64,000 nt of DNA from Rhizobium sp. BT03 (GTDB lineage Bacteria; Pseudomonadota; Alphaproteobacteria; Rhizobiales; Rhizobiaceae): positions 62,001-126,000 of the forward strand of contig NZ_CP125641.1 in the NCBI RefSeq assembly GCF_030053155.1, written 5' to 3'. The notes beneath the pieces are model-generated. The model had not been told where the DNA came from. It saw only the letters and a list, made by a program, of their open reading frames with translations, and did not search any database. The position numbers and the translations under genes were made by a program. How positions within the stretch are numbered: the stretch's first letter is position 1; each line of letters starts with the position of its first letter. Below are positions 44,843-62,769 of the stretch, in pieces.

Positions 44843-45772
44843 TCAGAGCGCCTTTTCCAGTTCCGGCAGGGCCTCGAACAGATCGGCGACGAGGCCGTAG
44901 TCGGCGACCTGGAAGATCGGCGCCTCCTCGTCCTTGTTGATGGCGACGATCACCTTACTGTCCTTCATGCCGGCCAGGTGCTGGATGGCGCCTGAGATGC
45001 CGGCGGCGATATAGAGCTGCGGCGCCACCACCTTGCCGGTCTGGCCGACCTGCCAGTCGTTCGGCGCATAACCGGCATCGACCGCCGCACGGGATGCACC
45101 GACGGCAGCGCCGAGCTTGTCGGCAAGCGGCAGGATGACCTCCCTGAACTTCTCGGCAGAACCGAGCGCCCGGCCGCCGGAGAGGATGATCTTCGCCGAG
45201 GTCAGTTCCGGACGGTCGGAGGCCGACAGCGCATCGCCGACGAAACGCGACAGACCCGGATTGGAGATTGCCGGGATTGCCTCCACCGTTGCCGAGCCGC
45301 CTGTCGCGGCGGAAGCAAACGAGGCGGTGCGCACGGTGATGACCTTCCTGGTATCGCTTGCCTGCACCGTCTGGATGGCATTGCCGGCATAGATCGGCCG
45401 CTTGAAGGTATCGGATGAGATCACTTCGATGATCTCCGAGACCTGGGCGACATCGAGCAGGGCGGCGACGCGCGGCAGCACGTTCTTGCCGACCGAGGTG
45501 GCGGCCGAGAGGATGGTGTCGTAGGCACCGGCGAGCGAGACGATCAGGTCGGCGAGCGGCTCGGCCAGATTGTTGGCGAGTTCGTCGCTTTCGGCCAGCA
45601 GCACCTTCGCCACACCGGCGAGTTTGGCCGCGGCATCGGCCGCCGCCTTGGCGCCCTTGCCGGCGACGAGAACATGAATGTCGGAGCCGATCTGGGTCGC
45701 TGCCGTCAGCGCCTTGGCGGTCTGGTCGGAAAGGCTGACATTGTCGTGGTCGGCCAGAAGAAGAATGGTCAT
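44843..45772 (-). CDS. etfA: Electron transfer flavoprotein alpha subunit
   Basis: 309 residues, the standard EtfA length. N-terminal ILLLADHDN and [28 protein letters not shown]-terminal FAD domain with [12 protein letters not shown] and the conserved [42 protein letters not shown] block (described in parts). With EtfB it takes electrons from flavin dehydrogenases and passes them to ETF:quinone oxidoreductase. It is the last gene of the liv-aldehyde dehydrogenase-etf operon, 23 bases after etfB. The likely donor in this window is the FAD oxidoreductase at 59102-60295. Confidence 0.96.
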
Positions 45773-45795
45773 GATGGTGTTCTCTCTTTCCTGCC

Positions 45796-46557
45796 TTAAA
45801 GCACGCCGGCTTCGTTCTTCAATTTGTCGACCAGTTCGGCGACCGACTTGACTTTGACGCCGGCCTTGCGGCCCGACGGTTCCTCGGTCTTCAGCACCTT
45901 CAGCCGCGGCGTGGTGGAGACACCGAAATCATCAGGGCTCTTCTTGTCGAGCGGCTTCTTCTTCGCCTTCATGATGTTCGGCAGCGAGGCATAACGCGGT
46001 TCGTTGAGACGCAGATCCGAGGTGATCACCGCCGGCAGCTTGATCTCGATCGTCTGCAGACCGCCATCGACCTCGCGGGTCACGGTTGCCTTGCCCCCAG
46101 AACCTGAGGTTTCGATCTCGATCTTCGAGGCGAAGGTCGCCTGGGCGGTGCCGAGCAGGGCCGCCAGCATCTGGCCGGTCTGGTTCGAATCGTCGTCGAT
46201 CGCCTGCTTGCCGACGATGATCAATCCCGGCTGTTCGGCATCGGCGACCCCCTTGAGGATCTTGGCGACGGCGAGCGGCTCGACCGCATCGTCGGTCTCG
46301 ACCAGGATTGCCCGGTCGGCACCCATGGCAAGCGCCGTGCGCAGCGTCTCCTCGGCCTTCGCAGGGCCGATCGACACCACCACCACCTCTTCAGCCTTGC
46401 CGGCTTCCTTCAGCCGCAGCGCCTCTTCCACCGAGATCTCGTCGAACGGGTTCATCGACATCTTCACATTGGCAAGCTCGACACCGGAACCATCCGGCTT
46501 CACCCGGATCTTCACGTTGTAGTCGACGACGCGCTTGACGGGCACGAGAATCTTCAT
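45796..46557 (-). CDS. etfB: Electron transfer flavoprotein beta subunit
   Basis: 253 residues, standard EtfB. It opens [19 protein letters not shown], has [19 protein letters not shown] near residues 34-52, [11 protein letters not shown] near 93-103 and the AMP-binding [21 protein letters not shown] segment near 127-147. ATG 46557 is preceded by AGGGGGA. It forms the heterodimer with EtfA. The gene is only 10 bases after the aldehyde dehydrogenase, so the ETF pair is part of the transporter operon and not a separate housekeeping locus. Confidence 0.96.
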
Positions 46558-46567
46558 TTGTATCCCC

Positions 46568-47998
46568 CTATGCGAGTGTGTAGGCAGTCTTGACCGAGGT
46601 GTAGAATTCCGCGGCATATCGGCCCTGTTCGCGGGGGCCGAAGGACGAGCCCTTGCGGCCGCCGAACGGCACGTGGAAGTCGACGCCTGCCGTCGGCAGG
46701 TTGACCATCACCATGCCGGCCTCGGCGTTGCGCTTGAAATGCGTCGCATGCTTCAGGCTGGTGGTGGCGATGCCGGAGGAGAGGCCGAAGCTGGTATCGT
46801 TGGCGACAGTGAGCGCTTCGTCATAATCCCTGACCCGAATGACGGCGGCGACCGGGCCGAAGATTTCTTCCCGCGCGATCCGCATCTGGTTGGTCGCTTC
46901 GGTGAAGAGCGCCGGTTCGAGATAGAAGCCGGGCGTTGCCCGTTCCAGCCTGTTGCCGCCGAAGGCCAGTCTTGCGCCTTCCTTTTGGCCGATGTCGATA
47001 TAATCGGTATCCTGCTTCAGTTGGCCTTGATCGACGACCGGGCCGATATGCGTTCCGCTCTTGAGAGCGTCATCGACGACGAGAGTCTCGAGACGTTTTG
47101 CAAGTGCGGCCACGAAGCGGTCGTGAATGCCTTCGGTGACGATCAGCCGTGAAGATGCCGTGCAGCGCTGGCCGGTGGAGAAGAAGGACGAATTGGCGGC
47201 CGCTTCGATGGCGACGTCGAGATCGGCATCGTCGAGGACCACGAAGGGGTTCTTGCCGCCCATTTCCAGCTGGAACTTGCGGTTATGCTCTATCGAGGCA
47301 AGCGCGACGCGTTTTCCGGTCGCCGCTGATCCGGTGAAGGTGAGCGCATTGATATCGGGACTGTCGAGCATGGCCTGGCCGACCACGCTGCCGCGTCCCA
47401 TGACGAGGTTGACGACGCCGGCGGGTGTGCCCGCCCGATGGAGGATTTCGACGAGGGACCAAGCGCAGCCGGGCACGAGATCGGCAGGTTTCAGCACGAC
47501 CGTATTGCCATAAGCAAGTGCGGGCGCGATCTTCCAGGCAGGAATCGCGATCGGGAAATTCCACGGGGTGATGACCCCGACGACGCCCACCGGTTCGCGC
47601 GTGATATCGATGCCGACGCCGGGGCGGACCGATGGCAGCGTTTCTCCCGACAGGCGGAGAACCTCGCCGGCGAAGAAATCGAAAATCTGGCCGGCGCGGG
47701 TGACTTCGCCGATTGCCTCGGTCAGGGTCTTGCCCTCCTCGCGGGCAAGCAGGCTTCCAAGCTCCTCCTTGCGCGCCAATATCTCGTCGCCGGTCTTCTT
47801 CAGGATGGCATGGCGTGCCAGGATCGGCGACTGCGACCAGACCGGCAAAGCCGACTTTGCGGCCGCGATCGCCGTCCTGACGTCATCTGCGCTGGCGCGG
47901 GAGAATTCGCCGACAATGTCATTGGTGTTGGACGGGTTGATGTTCAGCGAGATATCGCCTGCAACCCATTCCCCGGCAATCAGGTTCTTGTGCAGCAT
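46568..47998 (-). CDS. NAD(P)-dependent aldehyde dehydrogenase, alpha-ketoglutarate-semialdehyde dehydrogenase type
   Basis: 476 residues with all ALDH active-site elements: Asn147 (PWNFP), Glu245 (LEMGGKNP) and nucleophile Cys279 (FFSTGQRCT). The C-terminal block [25 protein letters not shown] is characteristic, from memory, of alpha-ketoglutarate-semialdehyde (2,5-dioxovalerate) dehydrogenases, the terminal enzymes of hydroxyproline, arabinose and glucarate breakdown that give alpha-ketoglutarate. Succinate-semialdehyde dehydrogenase is an alternative. ATG 47998 is 13 bases from the livF stop. Its place inside a branched-chain-type transporter operon suggests that the imported compound yields a semialdehyde. 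Confidence 0.85.
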
Positions 47999-48011
47999 GA
48001 AGGTCTTCCGT

Positions 48012-48746
48012 TCAGTGCAGTCCGAGATAGGCTTTGCGGACGTCTTGGTTGTCGAGAAGCGAGGCGCTGTCGCCGGAGAGATGGATACGGCCGTTGACCA
48101 TGACATAGGCGCGCTGAGAGAGCTTCAGAGCATGGTTGGCGTTCTGCTCGACGAGAAAGATGGTCTTGCCCATCGCCGCGATCTCTCCCAGGACTTCGAA
48201 AACCCGCTTGACGATCAGCGGCGCCAGACCCAGCGACGGTTCGTCGAACAGGATCAGCTCCGGCCGCGCCATCATCGCGCGGGCGATGGCGAGCATCTGC
48301 TGTTCGCCGCCCGACATCGTGCCGGCGGTCTGGTTCCGGCGCTCCTTGAGGCGCGGGAAGAGCTCGAACATGATGTTCCGGTCCTCTTCGAACCAGGCCA
48401 TGCCGATCGGCGTCGTGCCCATCATCATGTTCTCTTCGACCGACATTTCCTGATAGATCTGACGCCCCTCGGGAACGAGCGCTATGCCGCGTCGGGAAAT
48501 CCTGTTGGTTGGCATGCGGGAGATGTCTTCGCCGCGATGCAATATCCTGCCCGACGAGGCGCGCGGCGCGCCGAAAATGGAGGACAGCAGCGTGGTCTTG
48601 CCGGCTCCGTTCGCGCCGATCAGGCTGACGATTTCACCGGCGGAGATATGAACGTTGATGGCCTTCAGCGCTTCGATCGGACCGTAATGGGCATGAACGT
48701 CGGCGAATTCTAGAAGCGGCACCGGCGTGTCGGATGGCTGGCTCAT
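48012..48746 (-). CDS. livF: Branched-chain-amino-acid-type ABC transporter ATPase (LivF)
   Basis: 244 residues. Walker A GANGAGKT near 40-47, signature MSGGEQQM and Walker B LILFDEP. The short length without the extra LivG segment and the motif LVPEGRQIYQEMSVEENM identify the LivF member. It pairs with LivG to drive the permease. The gene overlaps livG by four bases and precedes the aldehyde dehydrogenase. Confidence 0.95.
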   Translation of the reverse strand: MSQPSDTPVPLLEFADVHAHYGPIEALKAINVHISAGEIVSLIGANGAGKTTLLSSIFGAPRASSGRILHRGEDISRMPTNRISRRGIALVPEGRQIYQEMSVEENMMMGTTPIGMAWFEEDRNIMFELFPRLKERRNQTAGTMSGGEQQMLAIARAMMARPELILFDEPSLGLAPLIVKRVFEVLGEIAAMGKTIFLVEQNANHALKLSQRAYVMVNGRIHLSGDSASLLDNQDVRKAYLGLH

Positions 48747-49561
48747 GCATGGACCTCCTCTTCGCTGACGCCGAGATAGGCCGCGACGACGGCCGGATCG
48801 TTGGCGACGTGTTCAGGCGTGCCGTCGGAGATGACCTCGCCATGATCGAGCACGACGATGTGGTTTGAAATGCGCATGACGAGGCCCATGTCATGCTCGA
48901 TGACGAGCACCGTCTGGTCGTGGTCGGCGCAGAGCCGCTGGATGACCTCCGCAAGATCCCGGGTTTCCGAGGGGTTCAGGCCGGCGGCCGGTTCGTCGAG
49001 GCATATGAGGCTCGGGCTCGTGCACATGGCGCGGGCGATCTCGACGCGGCGCTGCCGGCCATAGGGCAGCTCGCCGGCAAGGCGGTTGGCGTCCTCGGCA
49101 AGATTCATCTGTCTCAGCCAATGATAGGCGCGGTCGACTGCCTCGTCTTCGGCCTTGCGGAAGGTCGGGGTGCGGAAAACGCCGCTCAGAATATTGTTGC
49201 GGGTCGCGAGGTGCTGGGCGACCAGAAGGTTCTCGATGACGGACATTTCCTTGAACAGGCGGATGTTCTGGAACGTCCGGGCGATCCCGGCGCGGGTGAC
49301 GAGGTGCGAGCCGCCGGTGATCGGTTTCGTCACCAGCTCGCCGATATCGGCCGGGCCATCGCGCCCGTTCAGGATGATGCGGCCTTCGCTGGCGCGATAG
49401 AAGCCGGTGATGCAGTTGAACATCGTCGTCTTGCCGGCGCCGTTCGGGCCGATCAGCGCGGTCACCGCGCCGCGTTCGACGGTGAAGCTGACGTTCCGGT
49501 TGGCGACGATGCCGCCGAAACGCATCGTGACGTTCTGTACGTCGAGGATGGTTTTGCTCAT
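48743..49561 (-). CDS. livG: Branched-chain-amino-acid-type ABC transporter ATPase (LivG)
   Basis: 272 residues. Walker A GPNGAGKT near 36-43, then the LivG hallmark ARTFQNIRLFKEMSVIENLLVAQH and the signature LPYGRQRRVEIARAM (the family's L-YG-QR-EIARA variant). ATG 49561 overlaps the livM stop (ATGA), so translation is coupled; a longer upstream reading would run through livM in another frame. It is the partner of LivF. Confidence 0.95.
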   Translation of the reverse strand: MSKTILDVQNVTMRFGGIVANRNVSFTVERGAVTALIGPNGAGKTTMFNCITGFYRASEGRIILNGRDGPADIGELVTKPITGGSHLVTRAGIARTFQNIRLFKEMSVIENLLVAQHLATRNNILSGVFRTPTFRKAEDEAVDRAYHWLRQMNLAEDANRLAGELPYGRQRRVEIARAMCTSPSLICLDEPAAGLNPSETRDLAEVIQRLCADHDQTVLVIEHDMGLVMRISNHIVVLDHGEVISDGTPEHVANDPAVVAAYLGVSEEEVHA

Positions 49562-50868
49562 CGCCCCGCCTCTGCCTTGCTCGGGAAGGACAGTGCGCTG
49601 CCGACGCCTTCTTCCATCGTGCTCGGAAAGAAAGCCGGGCGCTTGATGCGGACTAGCCCGCGCGGCTTCCAGATCATCATGACGACCATCAGAATGCCGA
49701 AGACCAGCACCCGGTATTCGGCGAACTCGCGCAGGAGCTCGGGAAGAATGGTGAGGACCAGAGCCGCGGCGATGACGCCTGCCGTCGATCCCAGGCCGCC
49801 GAGCACGACGATTGCCAGGATCAGCGCGGATTCGAAAAAGGTGAAGGATGTCGGGTTCACGAAACCCTGTTGTGCGGCGAAGAAGACGCCGGCCAGCCCG
49901 CCGGTGGAAGCGCCGAGCATGAAGGCGGTGAGCTTGGTGAAGACGTGATTGACGCCGAGCGAACGGCAGGCGATCTCGTCTTCGCGCAGTGCTTCCCACA
50001 TGCGGCCGAGCGGTATGACGCGCAGCCGCTCCACCGCGTAGATAACGAAGCAGACGACGAGAAACAGCACGAAATAGAGGAACCAGAACTTGTAATCCGC
50101 ACTGTAGGGGATGCCCAGATATTCATGAATGGGCACGCCGCCCTGTTTGGCCGTGCGGGTGAATTCGAGGCCGAAGAAGGTCGGCGGCGGAACCGGAGCG
50201 CCGTTGGGGCCGCCGGTGAACTCAAGCCAGTTGTTCAGCACCAGGCGGATGATTTCACCGAAGCCGAGCGTGACGATAGCAAGGTAATCGCCATGCATCT
50301 TGAGGACGGGAAAGGCGAGAACCATGCCGCAAAGGCCGGCGAGGAACGGGGCAAGGATCAGCGCGCTCCAGAATCCCAGGCCAAGATATTGCGATCCGAG
50401 CGCCAGTAGATAGGCGCCGACGGCGTAGAAGGCGACGTAGCCGAGGTCCAGCAGGCCGGCAAGCCCGACGACGATGTTTAGCCCCAGGCCGAGCAGGCAG
50501 TAGATCAGCGCGAGGATCGCAATGCCTAGGAAATATTTGTCGGCAAAAAACGGCAGGCTCAGCCCTGCGACAAACAACAGGGCAAGGACGAGCATCGGCG
50601 ACCGTTCCTTGCCGTTCATGACGGTCACGCCGGCGCTGTTGCCTGCCATGCGCAGGCTGAACTTTCGACCGAGGCTGCTCATCTGAAATAGCGAGAGCGC
50701 CGATCGGCCCACCGTGACAATGGCGGCGAGCAGCAGCGCCCGCGTCAGTTCGTTGGTGAAAGAAAATCCGTCGAGCACCAGTCCCGAGATCGGGCCGAAC
50801 AAGATGATGGAGACCGTGAAGGTGAGGAGCGCTTGTTTGAGGAGCGTGTGAAGGCGATTGGGTTCCAT
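49558..50868 (-). CDS. livM: Branched-chain-amino-acid-type ABC transporter permease (LivM)
   Basis: 436 residues, about 100 longer than the shortest LivM proteins because of an N-terminal extension with its own hydrophobic segments. The core includes NIVVGLAGLLDLGYVAFYAVGAY near 130-152 and the cytoplasmic loop MWEALREDEIACRSLGVNHVFTKL near 300. The N-terminal extension is common in rhizobial LivM. GGAGGAGCAG precedes ATG 50868. It is the second channel subunit beside LivH. Confidence 0.94.
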   Translation of the reverse strand: MEPNRLHTLLKQALLTFTVSIILFGPISGLVLDGFSFTNELTRALLLAAIVTVGRSALSLFQMSSLGRKFSLRMAGNSAGVTVMNGKERSPMLVLALLFVAGLSLPFFADKYFLGIAILALIYCLLGLGLNIVVGLAGLLDLGYVAFYAVGAYLLALGSQYLGLGFWSALILAPFLAGLCGMVLAFPVLKMHGDYLAIVTLGFGEIIRLVLNNWLEFTGGPNGAPVPPPTFFGLEFTRTAKQGGVPIHEYLGIPYSADYKFWFLYFVLFLVVCFVIYAVERLRVIPLGRMWEALREDEIACRSLGVNHVFTKLTAFMLGASTGGLAGVFFAAQQGFVNPTSFTFFESALILAIVVLGGLGSTAGVIAAALVLTILPELLREFAEYRVLVFGILMVVMMIWKPRGLVRIKRPAFFPSTMEEGVGSALSFPSKAEAGR

Positions 50869-50883
50869 GATTTCTGCTCCTCC

Positions 50884-51801
50884 TCAGACTTTCTGGATTT
50901 CAGGACGGCCAAGCAGGCCATACGGTCGGAAAAACAGAAGGGTGATGAGCAGCGCGAAGGCGAAGACGTCCTTGTAGTCGGTGCTGACATAGCCGGCGAA
51001 CAGCGCCTCCGTCAGGCCGAGGACGATGCCGCCGAGCACAGCACCCGGCAGCGAGCCGATTCCGCCGAGAACCGCGGCCGTGAAGGCCTTGATGCCCATG
51101 ACGAAGCCGATGAAGAAGTTGAAAGACCCGTAATTGAAGGTGACCAGCGTTCCACCAACGGCGGCGGTCGCTGCGCCCATGACGAACACCGTCGAGATGA
51201 TCCGGTCGGTATTGACCCCCAGGATCGCCGAGATGCGGATATTCTGCTGGGTGGCGCGGCACTCGCGGCCGATCCTCGTGTAGTTGATCACATAGGTGAG
51301 CAAACCCATGGCGATCAGCGAGGCGAACAGGATGACCGTCTGCATATAGGTGATCTGCGCGAAGTGAGTTTCGTTGCCGATCCGGAACGCTCCCTGGATC
51401 AGCGTCGGTACGCCCTGGTCGCGCGCGCCCTGGGCGATCTGGACGTAGCTCTGCAGCATGAGCGAGATGCCGATCGCCGAGATGAGCGGAGCAAGCTTGG
51501 TCGAGCCGCGAAGCGGTCGATAGGCCACGCGCTCGATCACCCAGCCATAAACGGCGGTGATTGCGCAGCTGATCACCAGCACGGATATCAAGGCGAAGGG
51601 AACCGACTGGACGCCGAAATAAGCAAGCACGGCAAGGGTGATGGCGGCGATATAGGCCGATACCATGTAGACGTCGCCATGGGCGAAGTTGATCATCCGG
51701 ATGACGCCGTAGACCATGGTGTATCCGACCGCGATCAGGCCGTAGATCGTCCCGAGCGTGATGCCGTTGAATAATTGTTGAACCAGGATGTAAAAGTCCA
51801 T
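50884..51801 (-). CDS. livH: Branched-chain-amino-acid-type ABC transporter permease (LivH)
   Basis: 305 residues with about eight hydrophobic segments. LFNGITLGTIYGLIAVGYTMVYGVIRMINFAHGD at the N terminus is the LivH signature (given here only by its key parts: LFNGI, GLIAVGYTMVYG and NFAHGD). The EAA-like loop GRECRATQQNIRISAILGVN lies near residue 185. It forms the channel with LivM. The 76-base gap to livK holds a hairpin. Confidence 0.94.
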   Translation of the reverse strand: MDFYILVQQLFNGITLGTIYGLIAVGYTMVYGVIRMINFAHGDVYMVSAYIAAITLAVLAYFGVQSVPFALISVLVISCAITAVYGWVIERVAYRPLRGSTKLAPLISAIGISLMLQSYVQIAQGARDQGVPTLIQGAFRIGNETHFAQITYMQTVILFASLIAMGLLTYVINYTRIGRECRATQQNIRISAILGVNTDRIISTVFVMGAATAAVGGTLVTFNYGSFNFFIGFVMGIKAFTAAVLGGIGSLPGAVLGGIVLGLTEALFAGYVSTDYKDVFAFALLITLLFFRPYGLLGRPEIQKV

Positions 51802-51837
51802 GGTGAACCCCTCTTATGTTTTCGGGGATGGATAAGC

Positions 51838-51861: not shown

Positions 51862-51877
51862 ATCCGGCAAAATTGCC

Positions 51878-52993
51878 TTACTTCACCAAAACAGGGCTTC
51901 CCTTGTCGTCGAAATTGTAGAAGACGAACTTGAAGTCCTTGATGTCGCCCTTCGCATCCCAGGTGATCTTGCCGATGGCGGAATCGACGGTGTTGTTGCG
52001 AAGATAGTCGGCCTGGGCCTTCAGCTCGTCGCCGGCCTTCAGCGCGGCGACGACCGCCTGCGCATTGGCATAGCCGTAGAGCACGTAGTTGGCGGGCGTA
52101 ATATTGGCTTTCTTCAGCGCATCCTGGACGCCCTGCGTGGACGGATCCGCCAGCGGATCCGGTGTCGCCGAATAGTAGACGTTCTTCAGATTCTGAGCGC
52201 CGCCGGCGGCTGCGACGAGTTCTGCCTGGGCGAAGGCGTCGCCGCTGACGACGGCCACGTCGACACCCTGCTCCTTCAACTGGCGGATCAGCGGGCCGCC
52301 TTCGGGAATGAGCCCGCCGAAGTAGACGGCGTTGGCACCGGAGCTCTTGATCTTGGTGACGAGCGCATTGAAGTCGCGTTCGCCGCGGGTGAGACCCTCA
52401 TACATGACCGGCTTTACGCCGCGCGCTTCGATCGTCTTCTTGACGGCGTCCACCAGGCCCTGGCCATAAGTGTCCTTGTCATGGATGAGGGCGATCTTGT
52501 CCCGCTTCAGCGTATCCAGAATGAAGCTGCCGGCCACCACGGCCTGCTGGTCGTCACGGCCGCAGCCGCGGAACAGATTATCGAAGCCGCGATCGGTCAC
52601 GGTCGGGTTGGTCGAGGAGGGCGTCATTTCGAGGATGCCGGCGTCATTGTAGACTTCGGACGCCGGGATGGTGTTGGACGAGCAGAAATGCCCGATCACG
52701 GCCTGGACCTTGTCCTGGTCGACGAAACGGTTGGCGACCGCCACTGCCTGCTTCGGTTCGCAAGCGTCGTCACCCTTCACCAGTTCGATCTTCTTGCCGT
52801 TGATGCCGCCATTGGCGTTGACGTCGCCGACATAGGCCGAGACGCCGCTGAACACCTGCTCACCGAAGGTCGCATTGGCGCCGGTAAAGGGGCCGGCGAC
52901 GCCGATCTTGATCGTGTCGGCTGCGAAAGCGCTGGAAAAGAGCAGGGCGGAGGCGAGCGTGGTCGCCGTAAGAAGCGTTGAGATGGATTTCAT
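51878..52993 (-). CDS. livK: Leu/Ile/Val-type periplasmic amino-acid-binding protein
   Basis: 371 residues of the Peripla_BP_6 (LivK/LivJ) family. The Sec signal peptide is residues 1-24 with cleavage after AFA. The mature N terminus DTIKIGVAGPFTGANATFGEQV and the segment DDACEPKQAVAVANRFVDQDKVQAVIGHFCSSNT (partly shown: DDACEPKQ, IGHFCSS) are diagnostic, with the two Cys forming the usual disulfide. It is the first gene of the livKHMGF-aldehyde dehydrogenase-etfBA operon; AGAGGGAAAGCAC lies before ATG 52993. The family binds many amino-acid-like compounds, so the ligand is open. Confidence 0.95.
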   Translation of the reverse strand: MKSISTLLTATTLASALLFSSAFAADTIKIGVAGPFTGANATFGEQVFSGVSAYVGDVNANGGINGKKIELVKGDDACEPKQAVAVANRFVDQDKVQAVIGHFCSSNTIPASEVYNDAGILEMTPSSTNPTVTDRGFDNLFRGCGRDDQQAVVAGSFILDTLKRDKIALIHDKDTYGQGLVDAVKKTIEARGVKPVMYEGLTRGERDFNALVTKIKSSGANAVYFGGLIPEGGPLIRQLKEQGVDVAVVSGDAFAQAELVAAAGGAQNLKNVYYSATPDPLADPSTQGVQDALKKANITPANYVLYGYANAQAVVAALKAGDELKAQADYLRNNTVDSAIGKITWDAKGDIKDFKFVFYNFDDKGSPVLVK

Positions 52994-53163
52994 TGTGCTT
53001 TCCCTCTGGTTGAAGCAACTCTGATGTTCTTGTCTTTCGGGATGCGGGTTCGGCCCGCATTCACTCTTTGCCGTCACGCGAAGTCATTATTTTTATTCAG
53101 TTATTCGTCGTTCTCAAAAAAACGCTTGGAAAGCGCGTTTCGAGATTTTTGACTGTTTTTCCA

Positions 53164-53194
53164 ATTGACACTTATATGATAAGTGACATATACG
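53164..53194 (+). promoter_or_regulatory. hyuA promoter with an operator in its spacer
   Basis: -35 TTGACA at 53165-53170 and -10 TATACG at 53189-53194 (18-base spacer) or ATATAC at 53188-53193 (17-base spacer). The spacer holds the perfect palindrome CACTTAT-ATG-ATAAGTG at 53169-53185. A repressor bound there would block RNA polymerase. The -35 region plus half the palindrome (ATTGACACTTATATG, 53164-53178) recurs with two changes at the start of the FCD regulator gene (62762-62776). The rest of the 308-base divergent region 52994-53301 shows no gene. Confidence 0.65.
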
Positions 53195-53301
53195 AAGATC
53201 GTCAAGCGGAAATGTTGCAGCGGCGCTGGCAACAGTGAAGAATGGCTGGATGCGGGGCCGCATGAGTGCGGACTCGAACGTGAGAACTGGGGAACAAGAC
53301 G

Positions 53302-55383: not shown

Positions 55384-55393
55384 GGATCGTCAC

Positions 55394-57061
55394 ATGAACA
55401 AATCCATGATCGATATCCATATGCAGGTCATGTGGAACCGGCTGATTTCCGTCGTCGAGGAGCAGGCGCAGACGCTGATCCGCACGGCCTTCTCCACCTC
55501 CGTCCGCGAGGCGGGCGATCTGTCGGCCGGCGTTTTCGACCTCGACGGCCGCATGCTGGCGCAGGCGGTGACCGGTACGCCCGGCCACGTCAATGCGATG
55601 GCGGAATCCGTCGCGCATTTCATTGCCGATATCGGGCCGGAGAATATCTTCGAAGGCGACGTCTACATCACCAACGATCCGTGGAAGGGGACGGGCCACC
55701 TGCACGACATCACCGTCGTCACGCCCTCCTTCCATCGCGGCAAGCTGGTCGGTTATTTCGCCTCGACCGCCCATGTCGTCGATGTCGGCGGCCGCGGGTT
55801 CGGCCCGGATGCGCGCGAGGTCTATGAAGAAGGCATCTTCATCCCGATCATGAAGTTCTTCGAGCGCGGCGAGTTGAACCGGACGCTGATCCACATCGTC
55901 CGCAACAATGTGCGCGAAAGCGACAAGGTCGTCGGCGACTTCTATGCGCTCGCCGCCTGCAACGAGACCGGCCATCGCCGGCTCATCGACATGCTGACGG
56001 AATTCAATCTCTCCGACTTGTCGACGATCGGCACCTTCATCCTCAAGCACAGCCGCGAGGCCACGCTGGAGCGGCTGAGGAACCTTCCGCATGGCGCCTG
56101 GAGCTACAGCCTCGATCTCGACGGCTATGACGAGCCGGTGCATCTGGCAGCCAGGCTCAGCATCGGTCCCGAGGGCATCGTCGTCGATTTCGACGGCACC
56201 TCCGGCATGAGCAAGTTCGGCATCAACGTGCCGCTCGTCTATGCAAAGGCCTATGCCTGCTACGGCATCAAATGCGTGGTGGCGCCTGAGATTCCGAACA
56301 ATGCGGCCTCTCTCGCCCCCTTCGACGTGGTGGCGCCTGAAGGCTGCATCCTCAACGCCAAGCGGCCGGCGCCGGTCGCGGTGCGCCACGTCCTCGGCCA
56401 TTTCGTGCCGGATCTCGTTTTGGGCGCGCTGCATCAGGCGCTCCCGGGCCAGGTGCCGGCCGAAGGCGCGAGCGCGCTCTGGAATCTGCATATGAGCGTG
56501 CGCCCGCTTTCCGACCAGATCGGCGGCAAGGGCGCGGAAATCCTGATGTTCAATTCCGGCGGTTCCGGTGCGCGTGCCTCGCTCGACGGCTTGAACGCCA
56601 CCGCCTTTCCGAGCGGCGTGCACACGATGCCGATCGAGGCGACGGAGAATGTCGGCCCGGTGATCGTCTGGCGCAAGGAACTGCGCGAGGGTTCAGGAGG
56701 AGCGGGCGGGCAGCGCGGCGGTCTCGGCCAGATGATCGAGATCGAGGCGGCCGAAGGCTTCAGCTTCCGTTTCTCCGCCATGTTCGACAGGCTCGGCCAT
56801 CCCGCGCGCGGTCGTGACGGCGGATTGGACGGCGCGGCCGGCGCCGTTGCGCTCGATGACGGCACGGTTCTCAAGGGCAAGGGGCTGCAGTTCGTGCCGG
56901 AAGGCCGCCGCCTCGTTCTCTCGCTTCCGGGCGGCGGCGGTTACGGCGATCCGGCCGCCCGCCCGAGTGAGGCGGTCGAACACGATCTCAGGCATGGATA
57001 CATCACCGAAGAACAGGCTGGCGCCTACGGCCGGAGCCGGACCCAGGGAGGCAAGGTATGA
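55394..57061 (+). CDS. hyuB: Hydantoinase/oxoprolinase family subunit B
   Basis: 555 residues of the Hydantoinase_B family. It begins with MWNRLISVVEEQAQTLIRTAFS and has HVNAMAESVAHFIADI, YITNDPWKGTGHLHDITVV (about 93-111) with the acidic and His metal-site residues, and the C-terminal GGAGGQRGGLGQ and LPGGGGYGDPAARPSEAV blocks. It forms the catalytic partner of the A subunit. The gene is 10 bases after hyuA, and its stop overlaps the aminotransferase start (ATGA), so the whole set is expressed as a unit. Confidence 0.92.
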   Translation: MNKSMIDIHMQVMWNRLISVVEEQAQTLIRTAFSTSVREAGDLSAGVFDLDGRMLAQAVTGTPGHVNAMAESVAHFIADIGPENIFEGDVYITNDPWKGTGHLHDITVVTPSFHRGKLVGYFASTAHVVDVGGRGFGPDAREVYEEGIFIPIMKFFERGELNRTLIHIVRNNVRESDKVVGDFYALAACNETGHRRLIDMLTEFNLSDLSTIGTFILKHSREATLERLRNLPHGAWSYSLDLDGYDEPVHLAARLSIGPEGIVVDFDGTSGMSKFGINVPLVYAKAYACYGIKCVVAPEIPNNAASLAPFDVVAPEGCILNAKRPAPVAVRHVLGHFVPDLVLGALHQALPGQVPAEGASALWNLHMSVRPLSDQIGGKGAEILMFNSGGSGARASLDGLNATAFPSGVHTMPIEATENVGPVIVWRKELREGSGGAGGQRGGLGQMIEIEAAEGFSFRFSAMFDRLGHPARGRDGGLDGAAGAVALDDGTVLKGKGLQFVPEGRRLVLSLPGGGGYGDPAARPSEAVEHDLRHGYITEEQAGAYGRSRTQGGKV

Positions 57062-58269
57062 ATATGATTGCATTCGAAAGCGCGCGTGTCGCGACGATCA
57101 AGTCCTCGCCCTCCATGGCGGTCTCCATGGCCGCCAAGGCAATGCGGGCCAAGGGAGAGCATGTCATCGACCTGTCGCTCGGCGAGCCCGATTTCGATAC
57201 GCCCGCTCACATCGTCGAAGCTGCGATCGAGGCGATGAAGCGCGGCTTCACGCGCTATACGGCGCCGGACGGCCTGCCGGAACTGCGCCAGTCTATCGTC
57301 GCCAAGTTCAAGCGCGAAAACGGCCTCGACTATGCCATGGACGAAATCTCCATCGGCAACGGCGCCAAGCAGATCCTCTTCAACGCTTTCCTCGCCACCT
57401 TGGAGCCCGGCGACGAAGTGGTCGTGCCGGCGCCCTACTGGGTCTCCTACACCGACATCGTCATCCTGCATGGCGGCGTGCCGAAGGTCGTTGCCTGCGG
57501 CGTCGAGGATGCCTTCAAGATCACGCCGGAACGCCTCGAAGCGGCGATTACGCCAAGGACGCGCTGGTTCCTGTTCAACTCGCCATCGAACCCGACCGGC
57601 GCGATCTACACGGCGGACGAGTTGAGGGCGCTGGGCGCGGTGCTGGCGCGCCATCCCCATGTCGCCATCATGTCGGACGAGATCTACGAGCATATCGTCT
57701 GCGCCGACGTGCCGTTTACCTCCTTCGCCGTCGCCTGCCCGGAGCTGAAAGAGCGCACGCTGATCATCAACGGCGTTTCGAAGGCCTATGCGATGACGGG
57801 ATGGCGCCTCGGCTATGCGGCTGGTCCGAAGCAATTGACCAAGACCTTGAACAAGCTCCAGTCGCAGAGCACGACCTGCCCGTCCTCCATCACCCAGGTC
57901 GCGGCCGCTGCCGCCCTCGACGGCCCTCAAGACTTCGTCACGACGGCGGTTGCTGAATATAAGGCGCGCGGCCAACTTGTCGCCAAGGGTTTCGCCGCGA
58001 TACCGGGCCTCGAAGTGCGGGCGCCCGAAGGCGCCTTCTACCTCTTCCCCAAATGCGCCGGCTATATCGGCAGGACGGCGCCTGACGGCACCCGGATTTC
58101 CAACGATACGGAACTGGCCTCCTATCTCCTGAAAGAGGGGAAGGTCGCCACCGTCCCCGGTGCCGCTTTCGGCGTCGAGCCCTATATCCGCCTTTCGTTC
58201 GCAACATCGCGCGAAAATCTCGCCATTGCCATCGAGCGCACCGCCGATGCGCTGGCCAGACTTCGCTAA
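57058..58269 (+). CDS. Class I PLP aminotransferase (aspartate aminotransferase family)
   Basis: 403 residues. The N-terminal LSLGEPDFDTPAHI motif, SPSNPTG (near 180-186), the PLP-binding Lys242 in NGVSKAYAMTGWRLGY and the C-terminal RLSFATS motif (Arg for the substrate carboxylate) are all present. It transfers an amino group between an amino acid and a 2-oxoacid such as alpha-ketoglutarate. The start ATG 57058 overlaps the hyuB stop. In this operon it could deaminate the amino acid released by ring opening. Confidence 0.93.
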   Translation: MNMIAFESARVATIKSSPSMAVSMAAKAMRAKGEHVIDLSLGEPDFDTPAHIVEAAIEAMKRGFTRYTAPDGLPELRQSIVAKFKRENGLDYAMDEISIGNGAKQILFNAFLATLEPGDEVVVPAPYWVSYTDIVILHGGVPKVVACGVEDAFKITPERLEAAITPRTRWFLFNSPSNPTGAIYTADELRALGAVLARHPHVAIMSDEIYEHIVCADVPFTSFAVACPELKERTLIINGVSKAYAMTGWRLGYAAGPKQLTKTLNKLQSQSTTCPSSITQVAAAAALDGPQDFVTTAVAEYKARGQLVAKGFAAIPGLEVRAPEGAFYLFPKCAGYIGRTAPDGTRISNDTELASYLLKEGKVATVPGAAFGVEPYIRLSFATSRENLAIAIERTADALARLR

Positions 58270-58281
58270 GGGGAAAATATT

Positions 58282-59094
58282 ATGACCGATTATCAGCGCA
58301 CGCTTCTTACCGGCGCGGCTGGCGCTCTCGGAACCCAGCTGCGCGAATCCGGAACAAGGCTCGGCAAGATCGTCAGGCTGTCGGCGCGCAAACCCTGCGA
58401 AAACCTTGCTCCGCACGAGGAGGATGTTCCGGCTGATCTTTCCGATTTCGACGCCGTCTTGAAAGCGGTGGAGGGCTGCGACGCCATCATCCATATGGGC
58501 GGCCAGGGGCTGGAAGCGTCCTGGAACACCATTCTCAACGCCAATATCGTCGGCAGCTACAACATTTATGAGGCGGCCCGGCAGCACGGCGTCAAGCGTA
58601 TCGTCTATGCCAGCTCCGTTCACGCTATCGGTTTTTACGAGCGCACCGAGACGATCGACGGCAACGCGCCAACCCGCCCCGACAGCCTCTACGGCGTGTC
58701 GAAGACCTTCGTCGAAAACCTCGGCCGCTATTATTTCGACAAGTTCGGCATCGAGACGGTCAGTCTGCGCATCGGCTCCTCCTTCCCGGAGCCGACGGAC
58801 CGGCGCCATCTCATCACCTGGCTTTCCTATCGCGATTGCCGCCAGCTCGTCGAAAAGAGCCTGTCGGCCGAACGCGTCGGCTTCATGGTCGCCTATGGCA
58901 TGTCCGACAACAGCCGGGCTTTCTGGGACAACCGTACGGCGGCTTCCCTCGGTTACAAGCCGGAAGACAGCGCCGACGACTACGAAGAAAAGGTCTTCGC
59001 GAAGACACAGCAGGGCGATCCCAACGATCCGGCCGTGCGCTTCCAGGGCGGCAGCTTTGCCGCCGCCGGCCATTTCGAAGACGAGAAGAAGTGA
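58282..59094 (+). CDS. NAD-dependent epimerase/dehydratase-family dehydrogenase (uronate dehydrogenase-like)
   Basis: 270 residues with an extended-SDR Rossmann motif TGAAGALGTQLRE (about 9-21), DLSDFDAVLKAVEGCDAIIHMGG near 52-74 and the catalytic Tyr-X3-Lys in LYGVSKTFVEN near residue 135-145. Its size and motif pattern match uronate dehydrogenases and related sugar-acid dehydrogenases. The reaction on the pathway compound is unknown, but NAD-linked oxidation of a hydroxyl is likely. It follows the aminotransferase by 12 bases with AGGGGAAAAT upstream. Confidence 0.87.
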   Translation: MTDYQRTLLTGAAGALGTQLRESGTRLGKIVRLSARKPCENLAPHEEDVPADLSDFDAVLKAVEGCDAIIHMGGQGLEASWNTILNANIVGSYNIYEAARQHGVKRIVYASSVHAIGFYERTETIDGNAPTRPDSLYGVSKTFVENLGRYYFDKFGIETVSLRIGSSFPEPTDRRHLITWLSYRDCRQLVEKSLSAERVGFMVAYGMSDNSRAFWDNRTAASLGYKPEDSADDYEEKVFAKTQQGDPNDPAVRFQGGSFAAAGHFEDEKK

Positions 59095-59101
59095 GACGCC
59101 G

Positions 59102-60295
59102 ATGCAAGCATCCAAGTCATCCTATGACGTGGTGATCGTCGGCGGCGCGGTGGTCGGCAGTTCGGCCGCCTATTTCCTCGCGACCAATCCCGATTTCAAG
59201 GGTTCGGTCCTGGTGATCGAAAAGGACTGGACCTATCAACGCTCGGCCACCGCGCTTTCCTCCAGTTCCATCCGCCACCAGTTCTCCAATGCAATCAACG
59301 TCAAGGTCTCGCAATTCGGCACGGAGTTCATCCGCAACTTCAAGGAAAACGTCGCCATCGATGACGACACGCCGGAGATCGGCTTTCACGAGGCCGGTTA
59401 CCTGTTCCTTGCCGAGGACGAGCGCGGCGATCAGGTCTTGAGACGCAATCACGAGACCCAGCTTTCCTGCGGCGCCGAGGTGACGCTTCTCGATCCTGAC
59501 AGCCTCGGCCGGCGGTTTCCCTGGCTCAATCTCGAAGGGCTGACGCTCGGCAGCACCGGTGAGCGTGGCGAGGGCTGGTTCGACAGTGTCGGCCTGCTGC
59601 AGGGCTTTCGCAAGAAGGCTCGCTCGCTCGGGGTCGAATACATCGAAGACGAGGTCGTCGCCGTCAACAGAGAGGGAGACCGCGTCGTATCCGTATCGAC
59701 GAAGAGCGGTCAGACGATCGCATGCGGCACGATGGTCAATACCTCAGGCACCAACGGCAAGAAGGTTGCGCGGATGGCCGGTCTCGACGTTCCCATCGAG
59801 CCGCGGCGGCGCTCGCTGTTCGTCGTCGATTGCCGCACGCCGCTCGAGGGAAAAGTCGGCCTGACGATCGATCCGACGGGCGTTTTCTTCCGGCCGGAAG
59901 GCAAATTCTATCTGATGGGCACCTATCCCAAACACGATCCGGAAGTGGACCCGAACGATTTCGACGTCATGCATGACGAATTCGACGAGGAAATCTGGCC
60001 GATCCTGGCGAACCGGGTTCCGGCCTTCGAAGCGATCAAGGTCGTCAACTCCTGGGCCGGCCATTACGACTACTGCACCCTCGACCACAATGTCGTCCTC
60101 GGGCCGCATACGGAAGTCGGAAATTTCCTCTTTGCAAACGGCTTCTCAGGCCACGGCCTGCAGCAGTCGCCGGCGATGGGCCGGGGTCTCTCGGAGCTGA
60201 TCGCCTATGGCGGCTTCAAGACCCTCGATCTTTCGCCATTCGGCTATGAGCGGGTGACGGTGAACCGGCCCTTCCTCGAAGACGCCGTCATCTAA
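59102..60295 (+). CDS. FAD-dependent oxidoreductase (DAO family) probably linked to ETF
   Basis: 397 residues. The FAD motif VVIVGGAVVGSSAAYFLA is at residues 10-27, SSSSIRHQFSNAINVKVSQFG (parts) near 53-72, and a C-terminal NGFSGHGLQQSPAMGRGLSELI block closes the FAD site. The fold is shared by sarcosine/dimethylglycine dehydrogenases and glycerol- or D-amino-acid oxidases. ETF genes in the divergent operon are the natural electron acceptor for a dehydrogenase of this kind. ATG 59102 gives the normal Rossmann start; a longer frame upstream overlaps the preceding gene. It is unrelated in close sequence to the two DAO copies at 23-27 kb. Confidence 0.88.
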   Translation: MQASKSSYDVVIVGGAVVGSSAAYFLATNPDFKGSVLVIEKDWTYQRSATALSSSSIRHQFSNAINVKVSQFGTEFIRNFKENVAIDDDTPEIGFHEAGYLFLAEDERGDQVLRRNHETQLSCGAEVTLLDPDSLGRRFPWLNLEGLTLGSTGERGEGWFDSVGLLQGFRKKARSLGVEYIEDEVVAVNREGDRVVSVSTKSGQTIACGTMVNTSGTNGKKVARMAGLDVPIEPRRRSLFVVDCRTPLEGKVGLTIDPTGVFFRPEGKFYLMGTYPKHDPEVDPNDFDVMHDEFDEEIWPILANRVPAFEAIKVVNSWAGHYDYCTLDHNVVLGPHTEVGNFLFANGFSGHGLQQSPAMGRGLSELIAYGGFKTLDLSPFGYERVTVNRPFLEDAVI

Positions 60296-60315
60296 CGAAC
60301 AGGAGAGGGAACCCG

Positions 60316-62001
60316 ATGAGAAACGAAACATCAAAGCGCAGCGGCGGCCAGGTGCTCGTCGATGCCTTGCGCATCCACGGCGTCGATCGTGTGTTCGGCG
60401 TGCCGGGTGAAAGCTATCTTGCCGCCCTCGACGCCTTCCACGACCTAGAAGAGGCCATCGAATTCGTCATCTGCAGGCAGGAGGGCGGGGCTGCCTATAT
60501 GGCGGAAGCCTACGGCAAGATGACCGGCAAGCCCGGCATCTGTTTCGTGACCCGCGGGCCGGGCGCCACGAATGCGTCTATCGGCGTGCATACGGCTTTC
60601 CAGGATTCGACGCCGATGATCCTGTTCATCGGCCAGGTGGCGCGCGACCAGATGGAGCGCGAAGCATTCCAGGAGATCGATTATCGCCGGATGTTCGGCC
60701 AGATGGCGAAATGGGTGGTCGAGATCGAGGACGCCGCCCGCATCCCCGAACTCATCAGCCAGGCGTTCCACCGCGCCGTCAACGGCCGGCCGGGACCGGT
60801 GGTCGTCGCGCTTCCCGAGGATATGCTGACCGATATGGTCGATGTCGCCGACACGCCGCCCCACAAAAAGGTCGAAGCCTTTGCCGGCGAACAGCAATTG
60901 GAGGAACTGCTCGGTCTTCTCTCGCAGGCCAAGCGCCCGATGGCGGTCGTCGGCGGCGGCGGCTGGACGCAGCAGGCCGTTGCCGATCTGAAGGCCTTTT
61001 CGGAAGCCTTCAGCCTGCCGATCGCCGCGTCCTTCCGTTGCCAGGATCTGTTCGACAACGAGCATCAAAACTATGCCGGCGATCTCGGCCTTGCCGCAGG
61101 GCCGAAGCTGATCCGGCATATCAAGGATTGCGATCTGCTGATATCGATCGGCGCCCGTCTCGGGGAGATGACGACAGGCGCTTATACGCTGATCGACATT
61201 CCCGTTCCGAGGCAGTCACTCGTTCACATCCATCCTGGCGCCGAAGAACTCGGGCGGGTCTATCACGCAAGCCTGCCGATCAATGCCAGTGTCGCCGGTT
61301 TCTTGTCGCAGGCGGCAAAGCTGAAGCCGCCTGTCGCACCGGTATGGACGGATTGGACCAGGACTGCCCATACCGACTACCTCGAAAACCTCAAGCATCC
61401 CGAGGTGCCGGGTCCGGTGCAGATGGGCGACATCATGGAATGGCTGCGCGGCCATCTCAAACCCGATGCCATCCTGACCACCGGCGCCGGCAATTATTCC
61501 GCCTGGGCGCATCGTTTCTATCAGTATCGCTCGTTCCGCACCCAGCTCGGGCCGACCAACGGCTCCATGGGTTATGGCGTGCCGGCGGCGGTCGCCGCCA
61601 AGATCACCGATCCCTCGCGCACGGTGGTTGCCTTTGCCGGCGACGGATGTTTCCTGATGAACGGCCAGGAACTCGCAACGGCGATGCAATATGACGCCCG
61701 GGCGATCTTCCTCGTCATCAACAACGGCATGTACGGAACGATCCGCATGCATCAGGAGCGCAGCTATCCCGGCCGTGTTTCCGGCACCCGCCTGACGAAC
61801 CCGGATTTTGCCGCGCTGGCGCGGTCCTACGGCCTGCATGGCGAGACCGTGGAGAAGACGGAGGACTTCGCCGGCGCTTTCGAACGCTGCGAGGCATCGG
61901 GCAAGCCCGGCCTCATCGAAATCCGAATCGACCCGGAAGCGCTGACGCCGAAAATGAGCCTGACGCAGATTCGCCAGCAGGCGATTGCTCAGGGAAAATG
62001 A
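60316..62001 (+). CDS. Thiamine-diphosphate-dependent enzyme (acetolactate synthase-like)
   Basis: 561 residues with the three-domain acetohydroxyacid-synthase fold. The catalytic Glu56 is in RQEGGAAYMAEAYG, and the ThDP/Mg motif GDGCFLMNGQELATAMQYDA...INN is near residues 440-470. The central domain (about 190-330) has VVGGGGWTQQA and lacks an obvious quinone-site match to pyruvate oxidase. Such proteins ligate or cleave 2-oxo acids; members include acetolactate synthase, sulfoacetaldehyde acetyltransferase, oxalyl-CoA decarboxylase and glyoxylate carboligase. The specific reaction is not clear. It is the last gene of the hyu operon, followed by a strong hairpin. Confidence 0.9.
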   Translation: MRNETSKRSGGQVLVDALRIHGVDRVFGVPGESYLAALDAFHDLEEAIEFVICRQEGGAAYMAEAYGKMTGKPGICFVTRGPGATNASIGVHTAFQDSTPMILFIGQVARDQMEREAFQEIDYRRMFGQMAKWVVEIEDAARIPELISQAFHRAVNGRPGPVVVALPEDMLTDMVDVADTPPHKKVEAFAGEQQLEELLGLLSQAKRPMAVVGGGGWTQQAVADLKAFSEAFSLPIAASFRCQDLFDNEHQNYAGDLGLAAGPKLIRHIKDCDLLISIGARLGEMTTGAYTLIDIPVPRQSLVHIHPGAEELGRVYHASLPINASVAGFLSQAAKLKPPVAPVWTDWTRTAHTDYLENLKHPEVPGPVQMGDIMEWLRGHLKPDAILTTGAGNYSAWAHRFYQYRSFRTQLGPTNGSMGYGVPAAVAAKITDPSRTVVAFAGDGCFLMNGQELATAMQYDARAIFLVINNGMYGTIRMHQERSYPGRVSGTRLTNPDFAALARSYGLHGETVEKTEDFAGAFERCEASGKPGLIEIRIDPEALTPKMSLTQIRQQAIAQGK

Positions 62002-62009
62002 TCGGGAAT

Positions 62010-62034
62010 GCGCCGCCTGAAAGCCAGGCGGCGC
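62010..62034. terminator. Bidirectional terminator between convergent genes
   Basis: GCGCCGCCTG (62010-62019) / CAGGCGGCGC (62025-62034), a perfect 10-bp stem with an AAAGC loop, 8 bases after the TPP-enzyme stop and 3 bases after the regulator stop on the other strand. It serves both genes by position. Confidence 0.75.
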
Positions 62035-62037
62035 GCT

Positions 62038-62769
62038 TCAATCTTCCGCGTCGATGCTCGCCGGCTCGTCAAGCATCGTGCGGTAACGATGCAAGCTTTC
62101 TTCCAGGTGGGTGATCAGCGCGTTCTTCGCGGCCTTGACGTCACCCTGGGTGATCGCGGCCAGAATGGCGGCATGTTCCTTGTTTATCTTCTTCAGATAA
62201 CCGCTGTAGCCGCGCGCCGATTGCCGATGCTTGAGCACGAGATCGAAATTGATGCTCTCCATCACCGCTTCCAGAAAACTCGGAAAATGCGGATTGCGGG
62301 TGGCACGGGCGATCGCAAGGTGGAATTCGTAATCGGCGCGCGCCTCGACGACGGCATCATCGGTGACCAGGTTTTCGAGGGCGTCGTAGGCCCGGGCGAT
62401 CTCGGCAAGCGCCTCTGGCGTACGCCTCGCGGCTGCAAGCGCGACGGACTGGATCTCGACGCCGAGCCGCAATTCCAGGATTTGCATCGCCGAGCGAATA
62501 TCCTCGATGCGGCTGATCTCGAAATTGAGAGTCTTGGCATCCTTGTCGGAAACATAGACGCCGGCGCCCTGGCGCGCGGTCACCCTGCCGCCGACCTTGA
62601 GCGAGGTGAGCGCCTCGCGAATGACGGTTCGGGAAACGCCGAATTCCTCGCACAGCTGGGCACTTGACGGAATTTTCTCGCCGGGTGCATAAAGGCCGGA
62701 GTCGATGCGCTCCATCAGCTTCGCAACGACGATTTCCGCGAGATTGCCTCGTTGCGTGATGATTGACAC
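62038..62769 (-). CDS. GntR-family regulator, FadR/FCD subfamily
   Basis: 243 residues. A winged helix-turn-helix (about 8-70, with AQLCEEFGVSRTVIREALTSLKVGG) is followed by an FCD effector domain (about 85-215) with Asp/His metal-ligand-like residues (DYEFHLAIARATRNPHF near 139-155). FCD regulators typically repress catabolic operons and release on binding a carboxylic acid. GTG 62769 has GGAG upstream; a longer start ATG 62811 adds 14 residues and lacks a ribosome site. It converges on the hyu operon end and is the likely repressor of the hyu/liv genes. Confidence 0.9.
   Translation of the reverse strand: MSIITQRGNLAEIVVAKLMERIDSGLYAPGEKIPSSAQLCEEFGVSRTVIREALTSLKVGGRVTARQGAGVYVSDKDAKTLNFEISRIEDIRSAMQILELRLGVEIQSVALAAARRTPEALAEIARAYDALENLVTDDAVVEARADYEFHLAIARATRNPHFPSFLEAVMESINFDLVLKHRQSARGYSGYLKKINKEHAAILAAITQGDVKAAKNALITHLEESLHRYRTMLDEPASIDAED

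Follow-up and report, generated by a model that had tools for sequence, protein, structure and literature searches.

Several described pathways stand closest to the gene cluster considered here, which lies in a 64,000-nucleotide window (positions 62001–126000 of contig C2, NZ_CP125641.1) of the Rhizobium sp. BT03 genome (6.9 Mb, seven contigs). The oxidative uronate pathway comprises uronate dehydrogenase (UDH), KdgD and alpha-ketoglutarate-semialdehyde dehydrogenase (KGSADH); UDH oxidizes a ring hemiacetal and yields a lactone as its first product. Hydroxyproline catabolism proceeds through an epimerase, an oxidase, a deaminase and KGSADH. The bacterial pipecolate route via AmaA and AmaB to 2-aminoadipate begins with an FAD enzyme that acts on a six-membered cyclic imino acid and continues through an aldehyde dehydrogenase (ALDH), not through a lactam. 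Degradation of N-methylpyrrolidone, encoded by nmpABCDEF, involves hydantoinase-type opening, an FAD enzyme of the D-amino-acid oxidase (DAO) type and a semialdehyde dehydrogenase, the xenobiotic lactam being the starting substrate.

The Rhizobium cluster combines known families in a way for which no description was found among the literature matches listed (open-licence papers, titles and abstract openings). It is a real, co-conserved catabolic system and is apparently co-regulated. We favour, with slightly less than even confidence, a pathway that degrades a hydroxylated cyclic imino acid by way of a lactam intermediate; every reaction in it, their order, the regulation and the substrate are what we infer from sequence.

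Organization of the cluster

The original prediction of two operons, of eight and six genes, diverging from a 308-base region proved accurate: all 14 genes were recovered at their predicted coordinates and the gap between the start codons (52994–53301) is exactly 308 bases. The minus-strand operon has the order livK-livH-livM-livG-livF-aldH-etfB-etfA (livK start at 52993, etfA end at 44843) and the plus-strand operon the order hyuA-hyuB-aat-udh-dao-thdp (53302, hyuA, to 62001, thdp). Facing the plus operon is a separate minus-strand unit, in which gntR follows ydiJ and the latter crosses the window edge. The expected FCD regulator is indeed present at the cluster end, as is the YdiJ-like oxidoreductase, except that the window holds only the C-terminal part of the latter. 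The features are as follows.

44843..45772, minus strand: etfA, electron transfer flavoprotein (ETF) alpha (PF01012, PF00766)
45796..46557, minus strand: etfB, ETF beta (PF01012)
46568..47998, minus strand: aldH, ALDH nearest 2-oxoglutarate-semialdehyde dehydrogenases (NF042993, 535.9 bits, below the cut-off of 770)
48012..48746, minus strand: livF, importer ATPase
48743..49561, minus strand: livG, importer ATPase
49558..50868, minus strand: livM, importer permease (NF008450, 453.5 bits, above the cut-off of 366)
50884..51801, minus strand: livH, importer permease
51878..52993, minus strand: livK-type solute-binding protein (PF13458; NF011933 below cut-off)
53165..53191, plus strand: hyuA promoter-like stretch and candidate operator (TTGACA, then the palindrome ACTTATATGATAAGT at 53170–53184)
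53302..55383, plus strand: hyuA, ATP-dependent lactamase/hydantoinase subunit (PF01968, PF05378; nearest solved structure N-methylhydantoinase 7hk5)
55394..57061, plus strand: hyuB, metal-site lactamase subunit (PF02538)
57058..58269, plus strand: aat, class I aminotransferase (PF00155; nearest solved structure aspartate aminotransferase 6f35)
58282..59094, plus strand: udh-like, proposed hemiaminal-to-lactam dehydrogenase (48–49% identity to 3rft and 3ay3; Ser75 replaced by Gly, Asn112 by Val)
59102..60295, plus strand: dao, FAD amine dehydrogenase of the DAO fold, proposed to be ETF-linked (PF01266; nearest solved structure 1y56_B, then dimethylglycine dehydrogenase)
60316..62001, plus strand: thdp, thiamine diphosphate (ThDP) enzyme, proposed 2-oxo acid decarboxylase (NF006052, 916.2 bits, above the cut-off of 539)
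62038..62769, minus strand: GntR/FCD regulator (PF07729, PF00392)
62830..64000, minus strand: ydiJ, D-2-hydroxyglutarate dehydrogenase, C-terminal part only (full gene 1484.6 bits, above the cut-off of 1350)

Co-conservation and a shared motif

Both operons had been read as one catabolic system, whose sides should be co-conserved in other genomes. Among 297 genomes of the source's own family they are: LivK (E up to 1e-150, matches 75–100% identical) was found in eight, and each of these is also in the set of 31 that encode HyuA at ≥ 57% identity. The probability of this co-occurrence would be 5.8e-9 for independent genomes, which these, being related, are not. Five of the eight have livK adjoining hyuA. 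In G189, livK diverges from aat-udh-dao and hyuAB of another type lies further along, whereas in G075 and G157 the liv-aldH block, with a short-chain dehydrogenase/reductase (SDR) gene, ydiJ and gntR, sits on a different contig from hyuAB. The combination of liv-aldH with ydiJ-gntR-SDR is also seen in loci L140 and L141.

The motif CACTTATATGNTAAG (≤ 1 mismatch) occurs exactly twice in the 6.9-Mb genome, in the livK/hyuA gap and in the ydiJ/SDR gap, and was absent from the reversed control. Its hyuA copy lies inside the 27-mer that is best conserved in the 300 bases preceding hyuA, with 92% agreement across 15 relatives against a mean of 45%. L140 and L141 have a weaker match at the ydiJ/SDR gap (4 of 17 bases differing), and no motif was found there between gntR and livK. 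The GntR regulator would be the protein that binds this candidate motif. Because LivK and HyuA co-occur, the motif is shared and the gene set recurs, we regard the pieces as forming one system.

The hyuAB-thdp segment of G189 (L139, G189:C1:29001–48000), with a HyuA of 63% identity, lies among otherwise close genes and looks like a lactamase replacement.

The uronate dehydrogenase-like enzyme and the neighbouring FAD enzyme

The gene at 58282–59094 had been described as encoding an NAD dehydrogenase; its identity can now be corrected to the UDH family. Ser111, His113, Tyr136, Lys140, Ser165, Arg174 and Phe258 are present in the window protein and in 74 of 74 relatives; the catalytic Tyr136 and Lys140 are among them. 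The window protein has Gly in place of Ser75 and Val in place of Asn112 of the solved enzymes, where both residues contact the sugar. Ser75 is kept in three of the 74 relatives, Asn112 in 14 and both in one, that of Paenalcaligenes locus L051, whose udh neighbours a KdgD gene over cut-off in what appears to be a uronate-type cluster. The accessible text of PMC4476818 describes family members as oxidizing uronic acids towards aldaric acids and places Ser74 (its numbering) against the C2 hydroxyl of the substrate. It also describes UdhOg, with Ile for the conserved Asn and Phe for a conserved Gly, which oxidizes uronates with very low activity; other uronic acids were suspected as its natural substrates, and activity on mannuronate was no better (PMC4476818, same portion). 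The same Gly-to-Phe change is found in 31 of the 74 relatives. A second UDH-family gene of the genome (C2:307568–308332), 41% identical to the window copy, may be the genuine uronate enzyme.

All 15 dao matches of ≥ 60% identity in the family sample have the udh-like gene at a distance of at most 13 bases; over the entire set of 121 dao matches it lies within 200 bases in 24 and within 25 kb in another six. Script comparison covered 55 of the 121 dao matches, 40 of them below 60% identity, and 37 of 111 udh matches; inspection of the remaining 66 dao matches by eye showed no udh match at ≤ 25 kb. Because the udh-like gene pairs with the FAD gene, the lactam is probably made inside the cell. 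In L133 and L142 the pair stands beside a different Liv importer, with an alpha/beta-hydrolase-like gene near (read by eye) and no hyuAB in the stretch.

A dedicated flavin dehydrogenase for the ETF had been proposed. The FAD enzyme at 59102–60295 is the likely ETF partner, judging from gene linkage: within 10 kb, etfB accompanies 11 and etfA nine of 15 Burkholderiaceae loci, and on a Burkholderia vietnamiensis plasmid a dao-like gene (48.5%) precedes etfBA by two genes, with no hyuAB in the stretch. A specialized ETF, on the other hand, is doubtful. The window etfBA pair (44843–46557) is 97.8% identical in DNA to a copy ~53 kb off on its own contig (C2:51747–53467, L098), and a third copy, around 3120152–3121353 on contig C1 (L004, L007), shows 96.0% identity. 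The window pair thus resembles a general ETF that was duplicated recently; three such near-identical copies suggest recent copying or gene conversion. The second etfBA pair adjoins genes that, read by eye, look like betaine-uptake and N-demethylation genes (C2:44326–53467, L098, upstream of the window). At the etf end of the minus operon, an HPP-family membrane protein with a CBS domain is encoded at 43370–44548. The nearest solved relative of the FAD enzyme, 1y56_B, is a proline dehydrogenase subunit; against the AmaA model, the FAD enzyme scores no better than E 6.7e-5.

Proposed ring opening and end steps

HyuA has the ATP motifs and HyuB the Asp-His-Asp-His metal site (Pfam matches; motifs read by eye in translations and alignments), the two features by which the family is recognized in the available part of PMC8453981, where it is described as opening lactams with ATP. 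We also considered a carboxylase and rejected it, as the nearest solved proteins are hydrolases (N-methylhydantoinase 359.8 bits, 5-oxoprolinase 307.3, acetophenone carboxylase 245.3). Other hydantoinases are mentioned in PMC5979394 and PMC5011921, in passages that do not bear on this cluster.

The predicted alpha-ketoglutarate-semialdehyde-type dehydrogenase is nearest that family and falls short of its NCBIfam equivalog cut-off; the one Pseudomonas ALDH scanned (L026) is a succinate-semialdehyde dehydrogenase over the TIGR01780 cut-off. The full ydiJ gene (L097:830–3910, 1026 aa), which has the orientation of gntR and directly precedes it, passes the NCBIfam YdiJ equivalog cut-off. YdiJ is found in 11 loci, those of Rhizobium relatives and one of Halomonas, and a GlcD-like gene in 23, the two never sharing a locus. 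The one GlcD-like protein scanned (L072) has human D2HGDH 6lpn as its best named solved relative (E 1.1e-67), its top match being the unnamed oxidoreductase 3pm9. The recurrence of two different dehydrogenase families that never share a locus suggests a D-2-hydroxyacid end step. Beyond the window, at ~C2:127970–129422 on the strand opposite ydiJ, lie two SDR genes 60% and 43% identical to recurring families F6 and F8.

Proposed pathway and substrate

In the pathway that we favour, the Liv importer would take up the substrate and the FAD enzyme would oxidize its ring C–N bond to a cyclic imine, passing electrons to EtfAB. Hydration of the imine would give a ring hemiaminal, with nitrogen in the place of the oxygen of a pyranose hemiacetal, and the udh-like enzyme would oxidize this hemiaminal with NAD to a lactam, much as true UDHs oxidize the hemiacetal. 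ATP-dependent hydrolysis of the lactam by HyuAB would yield an open amino-dicarboxylate, the aminotransferase would convert this to a 2-oxo acid, the ThDP enzyme would decarboxylate it and ALDH would oxidize the semialdehyde, the last three steps giving a dicarboxylate one carbon shorter; YdiJ would then oxidize the resulting D-2-hydroxy-dicarboxylate. On stereochemical reasoning, (2S,5R)-5-hydroxypipecolate would lead to D-2-hydroxyglutarate and 2-oxoglutarate, and trans-4-hydroxy-L-proline to D-malate; the SDR pair may process another hydroxyl epimer.

A 5-hydroxypipecolate-type substrate fits best and 4-hydroxyproline nearly as well. Of the cyclic amino-acid derivative originally proposed, the amino-acid-like ring thus stands; an imported lactam or hydantoin is less supported, given the pairing of the udh-like and FAD genes. 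A reductase of the LhpI type (pyrroline/piperideine-2-carboxylate), over cut-off and beside a D-amino-acid-dehydrogenase-like gene in L037 (both families also occur in L043 and L047), fits both ring sizes. Available portions of two reports mention relevant compounds: hydroxypipecolates in legume material (Amorpha, partly tentative; PMC12299671), and 6-oxopipecolate, which accumulates alongside piperideine-6-carboxylate in human ALDH7A1 deficiency (PMC11424414).

Other candidates were rejected. Creatinine or N-methylhydantoin would leave the udh-like, ThDP and YdiJ genes without a role, and with plain pipecolate or proline a D-2-hydroxyacid dehydrogenase would be unneeded. For the ordinary oxidative uronate pathway, KdgD is missing among the scanned window genes and Ser75 and Asn112 are changed; for the standard hydroxyproline epimerase route, neither the epimerase nor a deaminase of the dihydrodipicolinate synthase (DHDPS) type is found among the same genes.

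A broader claim, that the udh-like proteins paired with DAO-type enzymes are a new class of NAD-dependent hemiaminal dehydrogenases making lactams and that the cluster provides a complete and widely distributed route leading from 5-hydroxypipecolate-type plant imino acids via a lactam and D-2-hydroxyglutarate to 2-oxoglutarate, seems to us unlikely in its full extent. If true, such a class might explain the poor activity of UdhOg on the uronates tested (PMC4476818, as far as its accessible text goes).

Phylogenetic distribution

The gene arrangement recurs in relatives and is not unique to one genome. Our HyuA locus sample consisted of the best 80 of at least 589 relatives and leans to close ones; flanks were ≤ 10 kb, several ending at contig ends. 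Identity thresholds were 60% for liv and etf and 45% for SDRs, YdiJ and GlcD, below which the F8 SDR of the window genome itself (43%) would fall. All 80 loci have hyuB, 75 a udh-like gene, 55 aat, 55 SDR F6, 54 thdp, 48 SDR F8, 47 dao, 23 the GlcD-like F11 and 11 YdiJ. Where HyuA is ≥ 84% identical (15 loci), the flanks hold dao and udh in 14 cases each, aat and thdp in 12 each, YdiJ in 10 and LivK in eight.

Every one of the 10 Pseudomonas loci carries aat, udh, dao and thdp, with ALDH in eight, and the two Acinetobacter loci have the same core plus ALDH. All 15 Burkholderiaceae loci have udh and dao. The remaining 36 loci, of which 23 have a Mesorhizobium record title, include 32 with udh, 30 with thdp and six with dao; in three genomes of Mesorhizobium type, a label assigned from gene order, a dao-like gene (52–53%) lies 19–20 kb from udh, beyond the flank (stretch read in L132 and L136). 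The spread is patchy, as four other same-genus genomes listed in the sample were without HyuA and dao at the thresholds used. The closest record among the plasmid-collection matches listed is plasmid pRSpC104a of Rhizobium sp. C104 (98.1% identity across a 6998-base query), whose annotation, moved to window coordinates, matches the FAD enzyme (59102–60295) and the FCD/GntR regulator (62038–62769).

Some individual loci deserve mention. In C104, ydiJ matches in two abutting, unannotated pieces (L089:29830–32908) and may be interrupted. Pseudomonas putida 700447 (NZ_JANHKS010000001.1; L029, L033) carries hyuAB-aat-udh-dao-thdp-ALDH-gntR in two tandem copies, the hyuA genes being ~17 kb apart. 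In Paenalcaligenes L051 and L052, hyuAB is accompanied by a nearby udh gene, by a KGSADH-like ALDH and, by eye, by TRAP-type importer genes, and the L051 scan also revealed an ornithine-cyclodeaminase-family protein besides KdgD; these sets possibly encode an amino-uronate pathway.

Alternative explanations

Several observations weigh against a lactam pathway for a hydroxylated imino acid. In the test for caprolactamase CapAB, HyuA and HyuB reached 454.8 and 164.3 bits, against NCBIfam equivalog cut-offs of 1000. Among dao matches of < 60% identity, only 15 of 106 have a udh-like gene at ≤ 25 kb (nine at ≤ 200 bases, six farther) and 91 are without one; most FAD homologues (~50% identity) have other roles or act without a udh-like partner, and this weak linkage of distant homologues slightly weakens our reading. 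None of the 10 Pseudomonas loci has ydiJ, etf or liv at ≥ 60% identity (weaker Liv-type matches are present), none of the 15 Burkholderiaceae loci has aat or thdp within the flanks, and both Paenalcaligenes loci have hyuAB, udh and ALDH with no dao found in the flanks. One of the six sampled genomes with HyuA ≥ 84%, G011 (87%; hyuA near a contig end), is without LivK at the threshold used. As to the substrate, D-malate would serve equally well in the last, YdiJ step, and a gene nearest trans-3-hydroxyproline dehydratase (below cut-off) beside three Mesorhizobium loci (L068, L069, L074) points to proline-type rings. 5-Hydroxypipecolate itself was reported from one of 22 legume samples in the available part of PMC11854323.

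The same lactam route could thus act on hydroxyproline, via 4-hydroxy-5-oxoproline, 4-hydroxyglutamate and 4-hydroxy-2-oxoglutarate to D-malate or, through an HpaI-type aldolase, to pyruvate and glyoxylate. In its favour are the dehydratase-like gene, joined in L068 by a DHDPS-family gene, the resemblance of the FAD enzyme to 1y56_B, and L137 (G186:C1:412000–431000), where an HpaI-family aldolase gene (below cut-off) lies between dao and aat. The L137 stretch has no labelled ThDP or ALDH gene belonging to this system. We nevertheless consider the hydroxyproline version unlikely, although the strongest of the alternatives: the YdiJ score and the KGSADH-like ALDH suggest a C5 end product, and the UDH substrates known to us are six-membered rings. 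A pathway that starts with HyuAB opening an imported lactam or hydantoin, the remaining enzymes then degrading the open product, is rather improbable. The HyuAB family and the encoded Liv importer are consistent with this, but the udh-like/FAD pair would be left without a clear role, and some weaker pairs occur in ~19-kb stretches lacking hyuAB (L133, L135). Less probable again is an amino- or imino-uronate pathway with a udh-like enzyme that still acts on sugar acids; its identity to true UDHs, the weak uronate oxidation by the similarly altered UdhOg (PMC4476818, accessible text) and L051, which joins hyuAB to KdgD, a KGSADH-like ALDH and a udh of true signature, have to be set against the loss of Ser75, Asn112 or both in 73 of 74 relatives and a window cluster with no KdgD among its scanned genes. 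Finally, the separate contigs in G075 and G157 might suggest an amino-acid importer/ETF operon that merely neighbours an unrelated catabolic operon, which we regard as very improbable in view of HyuA in eight of eight LivK genomes, the joint liv-aldH and ydiJ-gntR-SDR blocks of L140 and L141 and the motif shared by both gaps.

Comparison with known systems

If correct, the lactam pathway would be a second mode of ring amino-acid degradation, in which the ring is converted to a lactam and opened at the expense of ATP rather than through oxidation of a semialdehyde. The pathway would also supply a testable function for proteins named uronate dehydrogenase or dTDP-glucose 4,6-dehydratase (names among the 120 listed of 6117 relatives), and the cluster may mark soil bacteria able to use hydroxylated plant imino acids.

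The cluster resembles nmpABCDEF in combining hydantoinase-type opening, a DAO-type FAD enzyme and a semialdehyde dehydrogenase; to our knowledge, nmpABCDEF differs in having no udh-like gene, ThDP enzyme, YdiJ or ETF. FAD oxidation of a cyclic imino acid is shared with AmaA/AmaB, whereas a lactam step is proposed only here. With the oxidative uronate pathway the cluster has in common a UDH-family enzyme, here altered at Ser75 and Asn112, and a KGSADH-like ALDH, but KdgD is not among the scanned window genes. The hydroxyproline epimerase route likewise shares a DAO-type flavoenzyme and a KGSADH-like ALDH, but not, among the scanned window genes, its proline-racemase and DHDPS families. The caprolactam pathway, to which PMC6061476 also relates, has in CapAB, as described in PMC8453981, the same ATP-dependent, two-subunit opening of a lactam; in Rhizobium sp. 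BT03, HyuAB is accompanied by an importer, a flavin step, a udh-like enzyme and a ThDP enzyme.

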